The notes under the pieces: generated by a model
The model's database searches: none
The model's input: only the letters and a program-made list of their open reading frames with translations
What the model was told of the DNA's origin: nothing
Translations under genes and position numbers: made by a program
Part shown: positions 14,321 through 38,626 of the stretch, piece by piece
Layout: the number at the start of each line of letters is the position of its first letter
How positions within the stretch are numbered: position 1 is the stretch's first letter
Assembly: GCF_007671725.1 (NCBI RefSeq)
Contig: NZ_VCNM01000001.1
Location: forward strand, 1,116,001-1,180,000
Origin: Halorubrum depositum
GTDB taxonomy: Archaea > Halobacteriota > Halobacteria > Halobacteriales > Haloferacaceae
Direction of reading: 5' to 3'
DNA: 64,000 nt

Positions 14321-14370
14321 GCAACTGAGTGCCGTGAGTCAGTCGTACTGCCGGCGGCCACGCGGTTATT

Positions 14371-14698
14371 TATAAACAAACGATGCGGTGGCGCGTGCCG
14401 GTGAGCGGCCCTTCGGGCCGCGAATCGCACGCGCGAGGGAGCCCGCGACGGCGCATATAAGCGCCGTCGCGGCGAGGCTGGGGAGGCGTGAGGCTGCGGT
14501 TGCTGTGCGGTGGGTTGGGGCTCAAAGGGGCAGCCACGAGGGCGGCGTAGGCGTTCACGAGAGCAGAGCTCTCGTGAGCCAATCAGAACGCTGCGCGTTC
14601 TGATGACGACGAAAGCACCGCAAAGAGGGAGCGAACGAAGTGAGCGACCGAGTGAGGAGCGCAGCGAGCGTACGCCGCCCTCGCGGCTGGGGCTTTGG
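14371..14698 (+). repeat. Hairpin-rich dispersed repeat, copy A
   Basis: This copy matches 38305-38626 read on the opposite strand. In order it holds TATAAAC (14371-14377), GGTGGCGCG, a hairpin (14405-14421, 7-bp stem, TTC loop), a 12-bp perfect hairpin (14443-14472, ATATAA loop), and the conserved core GGCTGGGGAGGCGTGAGGCT (from 14476). A long terminal stem follows: CAAAG-GGG-CAGCCACG... (14523-14549) against ...CGGCTG-GGG-CTTTG (14671-14697). Inside that stem lie further perfect hairpins at 14555-14577 and 14582-14604. No coding frame makes sense across it. It is either a structured RNA or a palindromic non-autonomous repeat. Confidence 0.8.
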
Positions 14699-14774
14699 AG
14701 GCTGTCACCGCGCTGCGACCACCGATACAACTCATAAAACGCAAACGACCGAAACACTCGCGACTACCGAGTGG

Positions 14775-15098
14775 AAGCGGACTGAGGGGAGTAAGCCCCC
14801 TTCGGTTCGTCCCGACATTCGGCTGAGCGTCCGCGCCGTGGCCGGACTACCTTGTGGCGCGGACTTGCACCGGCGAGGATTCGCCGTTCCATCCGTTCCC
14901 GCCCGTCGAACCTCGTCGGGTTAACTCCCTTCCCTCGCGGGTCGGTTCGCTCGACTCACGGGTCGGGGCGGGGGGTGTCGTTGCTGTTCCAGAGCCAGCC
15001 GTCTCCGACTCCGGGCGTGTGCCCGGTCGCCCGTCCGGCCGGTGGGGGGACTTTCCTCATGCCAGAGGCACGGGAGTCGGGCTCCCTCTGTCCGGGCC
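14775..15098 (-). ncRNA. rnpB: RNase P RNA
   Basis: The RNA component of RNase P, which cleaves the 5' leader from pre-tRNA. On the minus strand the universal CR-I/P4 segment reads GAGGAAAGTCC (15059-15049), and the matching 3' part reads ACGAACCGAAGGGGGCTTAC (14816-14798 region). The ends pair as helix P1: CGGACAGAGGG (15094-15084) with CCCTCAGTCCG (14788-14778), one A-A mismatch in 11 positions. A TATA-like CGCTTATTCGC centred near 15121 puts transcription start at about 15097, just before P1. The length, about 324 nucleotides, fits archaeal type A. Exact ends are approximate. Copy A of the dispersed repeat begins about 75 bases beyond its 3' end. Confidence 0.88.
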
Positions 15099-38135: not shown

Positions 38136-38304
38136 GATCGCGCGAATCGGTCGTGGGGGAACCGCGACGGTTCTTTTGCCGTCTGGAAAAGTGGCTCGAA
38201 AGTGTTGTCCGTCCGCTCGCGTCTCGTCGCTGTCGCGGAGAACGTCTCCGAAGATCGGGTCGAGCGCTTATAAAAATCTACACAGAAGTCGACGGTGAAC
38301 TCCT

Positions 38305-38626
38305 CCAAAGCCCCAGCCACGAAGACTCGCGTGACTCGCTGCGGTCCTCAGTCGCTCGCGCTGCTCGTTCCTTGCGGTCCTTGCGTCGTCAGGCTTCGTC
38401 TTCGTGGCTGCCCCTTTGAATCCCACCCCACACAGCACCGCAGCCTCACGCCTCCCCAGCCTCGGCGGACGGCCCGGCGCGGGCGACGCCGCGCCGGCCC
38501 GCCGCCTCCAGCGAGAATCGAAGATTCTCTGGCAGCCGGCGCGTAGCGCCGGCGACCTCGCACGAGCACCTCGCGGCCGCCGGAGGCGGCCGCTCGGAGG
38601 CGCGCGCCACCACGTCTGGTTTATAC
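38305..38626 (-). repeat. Hairpin-rich dispersed repeat, copy B
   Basis: On the minus strand this reads TATAAAC (38625-38619), GGTGGCGCG, three or four GC-rich hairpins, then the same core GGCTGGGGAGGCGTGAGGCT (from 38463 downward) as copy A. A terminal stem closes it: CAAAG-GGG-CAGCCACGAAGAC (38418-38398) pairs with GTCTTCGTGGCTG-GGG-CTTTG (38326-38306), 13 bp perfect plus 5 bp, with the same GGG/GGG internal loop. A TATA-like CTTATAAAAATC (38268-38279, plus strand) flanks the other end. The whole gene-free stretch 38136-38677 otherwise holds only spacer. No frame in it looks coding. Confidence 0.8.

Follow-up and report, generated by a model that had tools for sequence, protein, structure and literature searches.

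A dispersed family of candidate structured RNA elements with a near-invariant G-rich core in Halorubrum depositum and other Halobacteriales

The window analysed here, a stretch of 64,000 nucleotides of the Halorubrum depositum genome, holds two copies of one non-coding element in opposite orientations. Copy 1 is located on the + strand from position 14369 to about 14740 and copy 2 on the - strand from 38625 to about 38268, each running from AT box to AT box. A first-pass annotation had described a block at 14371-14698 with an inverted copy at 38305-38626. Both are indeed present, and the motifs they share follow one another in the order it gave; the location stands and the ends do not, the true span being slightly longer on both sides. 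Directly beside copy 1 lies the RNase P RNA gene (14780-15092, - strand; RF00373, 174.5 bits). Its 3' end faces the copy, and the repeat stops about 40 bp short of the gene. The likeness of the two copies is not due to chance: their 24-base core, GGCTGGGGAGGCGTGAGGCTGCGG, has 25 matches at up to three mismatches in the 3.18-Mb H. depositum genome, while the reversed-pattern control has none.

From 5' to 3' on its + strand the element is composed of an AT box, hairpin P2, the motif GAGGGA, stem P3, the core, a G/T-rich linker, hairpin P4 and a 3' unit. In copy 1, where all features are on the + strand, the AT box TTTATAAA (14369-14376) is recognised by sequence about 18 nt upstream of P2. Over 227 copies an AT peak is found at about -18 relative to P2 and a second, weaker one at about -53. 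Hairpin P2 (14391-14434), identified by covariation, is built of an outer helix GCGCGTGC/GCACGCGC followed by a short helix, a tandem G-A step and a GC stem. The conserved GAGGGA (14435-14440) between P2 and P3 is unpaired and near invariant in alignment A2. P3 (14441-14473) is a variable stem whose pairing is retained despite changes on both sides. The near-invariant G-rich core follows at 14476-14499, with G runs that are invariant across 37 diverse copies. In P4 (14523-14697), CAAAG:CTTTG and AGCC:GGCT close a long arm with a GGGC/GGGG internal loop. The 3' unit (14685-14740) consists of GGCTGGGGCTTTGGAGG, a variable stretch and an AT box. Copy 2 shows the same arrangement on the - strand: AT box TATAAAC (38619-38625, by sequence), P2 (38560-38607, within a match of covariance model R1 at 38436-38608, minus strand, 34.6 bits), the P3 region (38462-38555) with a nested double hairpin (CCGGCGC../TCTCG..) and a long GC stem, the core (38438-38461, a match of the core pattern at contig positions 1154438-1154461, minus strand), P4 (38306-38418, by sequence and P4 pairing counts) and, by sequence, the 3' unit with its AT box TTTTTATAA (38268-38318).

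The size of the element varies from about 200 to 350 bp, with several hairpins. Double-hairpin inserts of about 55 bp are found in P3 or P4 of many copies. Copy 1 carries one in the P4 arm at about 14553-14607 (TTCACGAGAGC..GCTCTCGTGAGCCAATCAGAACGC..GCGTTCTGATGA; + strand), which other copies have at the same and at other positions, and copy 2 carries a different one inside P3. These repeats form a second class nested in the element, recurring at several positions (14553-14607, 38462-38555 and many other loci) with the linkers TGCCAGAG and AGCCAATC, and may be a separate small mobile repeat. In short forms of the element P4 is reduced to CAGCCTCACGGCTG. In L138 and other short copies, the loop CAGCCTCAC of the reduced P4 is complementary to GTGAGGCTG of the core, a possible alternative pairing. 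Many other copies have the 3' unit in tandem, mostly at a spacing of 57 bp. The spacings are mostly multiples of three (45, 51, 54, 57, 60, 63, 66 and 75, for example in L110, L164 and L282), although no coding frame is supported. In Halorussus, three loci (L022, L037, L122) hold inverted pairs of elements arranged tail to tail, in which CAGTAGCTAGC..GCTAGCTACTG replaces the Halorubrum 3' unit.

The pair in the window belongs to a large family, as the first-pass annotation had vaguely sensed for Halorubrum-type genomes. Searches of haloarchaeal genomes recovered many further copies and extended the range to many genera of Halobacteriales; the copy numbers, which come from capped pattern, model and BLAST searches, are minimum values. 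From the parts of the H. depositum genome covered, 46 candidate copies were taken, two of which have no similar partner and look spurious, leaving about 44 diverged copies. The 3' motif GGCTGGGGCTTTGGAGGTG has 87 matches in this genome against 6 in controls. An exact 20-base scan of genome contigs yielded at least 120 stretches, mostly in Halorubrum and also in Haloparvum, Halorussus, Halosimplex and Halolamina, and in other Halorubrum genomes BLAST matches, full-length or partial, number up to about 80. Of 293 Halobacteriales genomes, 134 have a match of model R1; these belong to 38 of 87 genera, and deeper model scoring finds up to 59 copies per genome in genera other than Halorubrum. In a sample of the phylum, 14 of 197 genomes have model matches; among the matches listed, all fall within Halobacteriales and none in genomes outside it. 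A virus-borne element was considered and rejected: two exact patterns of the element have no match in 2.9 million viral contigs, a blastn search of copy 2 against a phage collection gave one weak 41-base match only, and two partial plasmid matches were seen. No family of Rfam 15 reaches its gathering score (best sub-threshold H19_3, 18.3 bits, E 0.34), and no description was found in the open-access papers searched. A set of 22 conserved halobacterial intergenic ncRNAs without function has been reported (PMC7002113), and one of them may be this family. By these searches the family is apparently undescribed.

Base pairs of the element covary across species. Over 175 copies counted without gaps, inner pairs of P2 are formed in 147, 124 and 148 copies, against shuffle maxima of 104, 78 and 105, respectively. 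The two variable base pairs of P4 are kept in 173 and 171 of the 175 copies (shuffles at most 158 and 154). When 37 diverse copies were aligned independently with MAFFT, changes on both sides were seen in 6 of the 14 pairs predicted. A covariance model, as proposed in the first-pass annotation, was also built, and all 19 of its pairs covary: in 105 copies aligned to R1 every one has changes on both sides, with none of 500 shuffles reaching the observed values. Paired cells amount to 88.6% versus 65.5% in shuffles, and slid versions collapse; the alignment is fitted to the model and hence leans its way, and the MAFFT alignment and the ungapped counts agree with it. In the same model-leaning alignment G-U cells far exceed A-C cells on the + strand (112 versus 26 over all helices, 101 versus 4 in the P2 helices), therefore the + strand is the folding strand. 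This bias is no proof of RNA, since single-stranded DNA could also form G-T pairs. At the alaX orthologous locus the P3 stems differ in sequence between species yet still pair, and most H. depositum copies retain the core and the fold despite their divergence.

We favour the explanation that the copies are structured RNA elements of one dispersed family, maintained by selection on their fold, and we give it a probability of about one half. Mobile DNA alone is a weaker candidate, and a role as DNA in cis is weaker again. Of the three guesses made in the first-pass annotation, a structured RNA family is the best supported, through order-wide covariation and the G-U bias on the + strand. The folding of the individual copies speaks against it: in copy 1 the two strands alike outdo their shuffled versions (z -6.8 and -7.5), and copy 2 reaches a z of -2.4 only.

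A protein-coding origin is highly improbable. The 3' unit can be read as GWGFGGVHRRSAVNYL-stop and the core as GWGGVRLR, with spacings that are mostly multiples of three; this holds for 67 of 71 tandem spacings and 89 of 95 motif-to-TTATAA distances, and the third positions of the 3'-unit frame vary most over the first codons. However, pN/pS in this frame is 0.72, close to that of the other frames (0.77-1.09), and the body motifs lie at distances spread about evenly over the three remainders modulo 3. With a gene caller that uses codon usage and was trained on the window, a called gene overlaps the core in just 1 of 239 copies, and the codon model finds no gene. The spacings are moreover dominated by length class 57, and the preference for multiples of three weakens once every family and length class is included, to 110 of 132 spacings, 71 of them from class 57 alone. 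A gene with a conserved open frame and synonymous bias was accordingly rejected on pN/pS, body frame counts and the codon-model caller, and the statement that the block matches no gene, insertion sequence or tRNA holds within the tests made. A leaderless - strand gene starting at GTGAAC, 21 nt past the TATA box in most 3' units, shows no - strand coding signal. A CRISPR-like reading of the tandem 3' units, as repeat plus spacer with CAAAGGGGCAGCC as anti-repeat, was rejected because the units share most of the 'spacer'. Both neighbouring genes were called for 238 copies, of which 94 are in convergent, 71 in '<<', 44 in '>>' and 29 in divergent arrangement. Convergent spacers thus hold 39% of the copies, compared with 10-14% of background spacers of at least 120 bp, and divergent ones 12%, compared with 41-42%. 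The 3' end of the element faces the 3' end of a neighbour gene in 165 of the 238 copies. The preference of '<<' over '>>' has P = 0.015 with relatedness ignored, and P values from these counts are too small because related copies are included; this excess would result if a + strand transcript lacked a strong terminator, and, like the facing 3' ends, it would be expected if such a transcript must not run into a gene start. The convergent bias, the scarcity of divergent copies and the tandem 3' units, with an AT box in each, would also suit a cis-acting DNA or 3'-end element, such as a supercoil sink, a gyrase or nucleoid-protein site, or a transcript-end structure between convergent genes, comparable to the gyrase-binding BIMEs. 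We regard this as unlikely. A purely DNA-level site needs neither covariation with a one-strand G-U bias nor an invariant unpaired core, and no more than 138 of the 238 copies have the + strand as sense 3' UTR of the gene upstream. The chromosome-organising site suggested earlier found no specific support.

The strongest competitor is a non-autonomous mobile DNA of the REP/BIME or PATE type, in which single-stranded DNA hairpins would be recognised in trans by a transposase or another enzyme and gene 3' ends would be harmless landing places. The turnover of the element between species is high, and together with the dispersal of copies in both orientations it fits a mobile repeat as well as a structured RNA. 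Most of 30 loci located 3' of the RNase P RNA gene, from 52 Halorubrum genomes, hold the element, in the window's orientation if the next gene is that of the protease and inverted if it is a different one; this is the 'SwitchRepeat' pattern of Haloquadratum elements (PMC3119063). At the alaX locus one orientation is common to most species, with the element absent or a remnant in others. Between H. depositum and a relative at 89% nucleotide identity, about 4 sites are shared over 400 kb, 6 are present in the relative only and 2 in H. depositum only. Mobility would further account for the inverted pairs, for remnants with the core or body deleted (L155, L167, L191, L199), for the gene-end placement, as in bacterial REPs (PMC3733652), and for the relative G005, where several copies have 5' halves that are 97-100% identical with different flanks, and contigs break there. 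These 5' halves would reflect recent movement or gene conversion. At the G005 contig ends L363, L364, L365 and L368, which carry near-identical 5' halves, the left boundary lies at (TAC)AGGTGAGAGAGG. Several observations argue against mobile DNA alone. The paralogues in H. depositum are old, since the closest paralogue is mostly 66-84% identical by aligned length and at most 86%. A Y1 transposase (PF01797) has no match in 11 of the 52 Halorubrum genomes, H. depositum and 10 others, and of these at least G001, G007, G014 and G028 carry 19 or more copies each; the H. depositum genome has one TnpB. No element motif occurs at 30 TnpB and 10 Y1 loci of Halorubrum, and a relation to the omega-RNA of IS605/TnpB or to PATEs was rejected on these grounds. 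No clean target duplication was found, the whole spacer usually being replaced where the element is missing, so that empty sites are not clean. One site pair has a 9-bp direct repeat, GTCGGAACG, around the block, which a deletion explains equally well. When MITE features were examined, CGGTG..CACCG and AT boxes were found at both ends of the element; element-free sites were not clean. The earlier suggestion of a palindromic mobile repeat is partly supported. In its favour are the turnover, the nested palindromes, the inverted pairs and the single site occupied in opposite orientations; it falls short in the association with a transposase and in near-identical copies, which the H. depositum genome lacks. 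As an explanation on its own we consider it doubtful.

The element resembles the REP, BIME and REPIN sequences of bacteria in being palindromic, dispersed and intergenic, in often forming inverted pairs, in the G-T pairs of its stems and in its preference for convergent spacers and gene 3' ends (PMC3733652). REP units, however, measure 20-40 bp (PMC3733652), whereas the element has about 200-350 bp, several hairpins and an invariant unpaired core and is conserved over an archaeal order; a Y1 (RAYT) mobiliser is also absent, with no PF01797 in H. depositum and 10 other Halorubrum genomes. With the PATEs and SMRs of Haloquadratum walsbyi (PMC3119063) it shares the lack of a transposase, palindromes with no clear target duplication, nested small repeats, orientation switches at one site and core-deleted remnants. 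PATE ends resemble those of IS605-type transposons; for the element no such link was found at the TnpB and Y1 loci. Membership among REPs or PATEs fails on the transposase link as tested. The class I intergenic repeats of halovirus HF2 are 56-58 bp long and carry promoters (PMC8707807), similar to the 57-bp units with one AT box each, but their conserved motif TCTTTAAGTC (PMC8707807) is not seen in the 3' units of the element. Archaeal ncRNAs in Rfam, such as the RNase P RNA that adjoins one copy, are structured RNAs of haloarchaea, as the element would be, but it matches no Rfam family. It works like a REP/PATE-like dispersed repeat in its distribution and like a structured RNA in its conservation.

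Under the structured-RNA explanation, each copy would form a small transcription unit of its own, transcribed in the + direction. One point speaks against such a unit: transcription from the AT box at -18 would begin within P2, and only the weaker box at -53 would place the start ahead of P2. The folded RNA may present the G-rich core to a putative protein partner. In the high-K+ cytoplasm the core may form a two-tier G-quadruplex, to which its invariant G runs and variable loops would be suited. Copies would spread and be lost through recombination or a putative mobiliser, and the remaining ones would be held by selection on the fold. More tentatively, the family may be an undescribed class of large haloarchaeal RNAs. 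Halorubrum and several other genera would have some tens of such loci per genome, a putative protein would recognise the fold and the G-rich core, and the class would spread as an RNA-encoding repeat.

In genomes such as those of Halorubrum, few structured non-coding families would be as abundant as this element, which is present in nearly half of the sampled genera. If it is transcribed, it offers an RNA open to experiment, with many natural variants around a near-invariant motif. If it is a DNA repeat, its size and constraint would be unusual for a REP-like element, and the usual transposase would be missing. It would also explain many of the GC-rich intergenic blocks and spurious small ORFs of haloarchaeal genomes.
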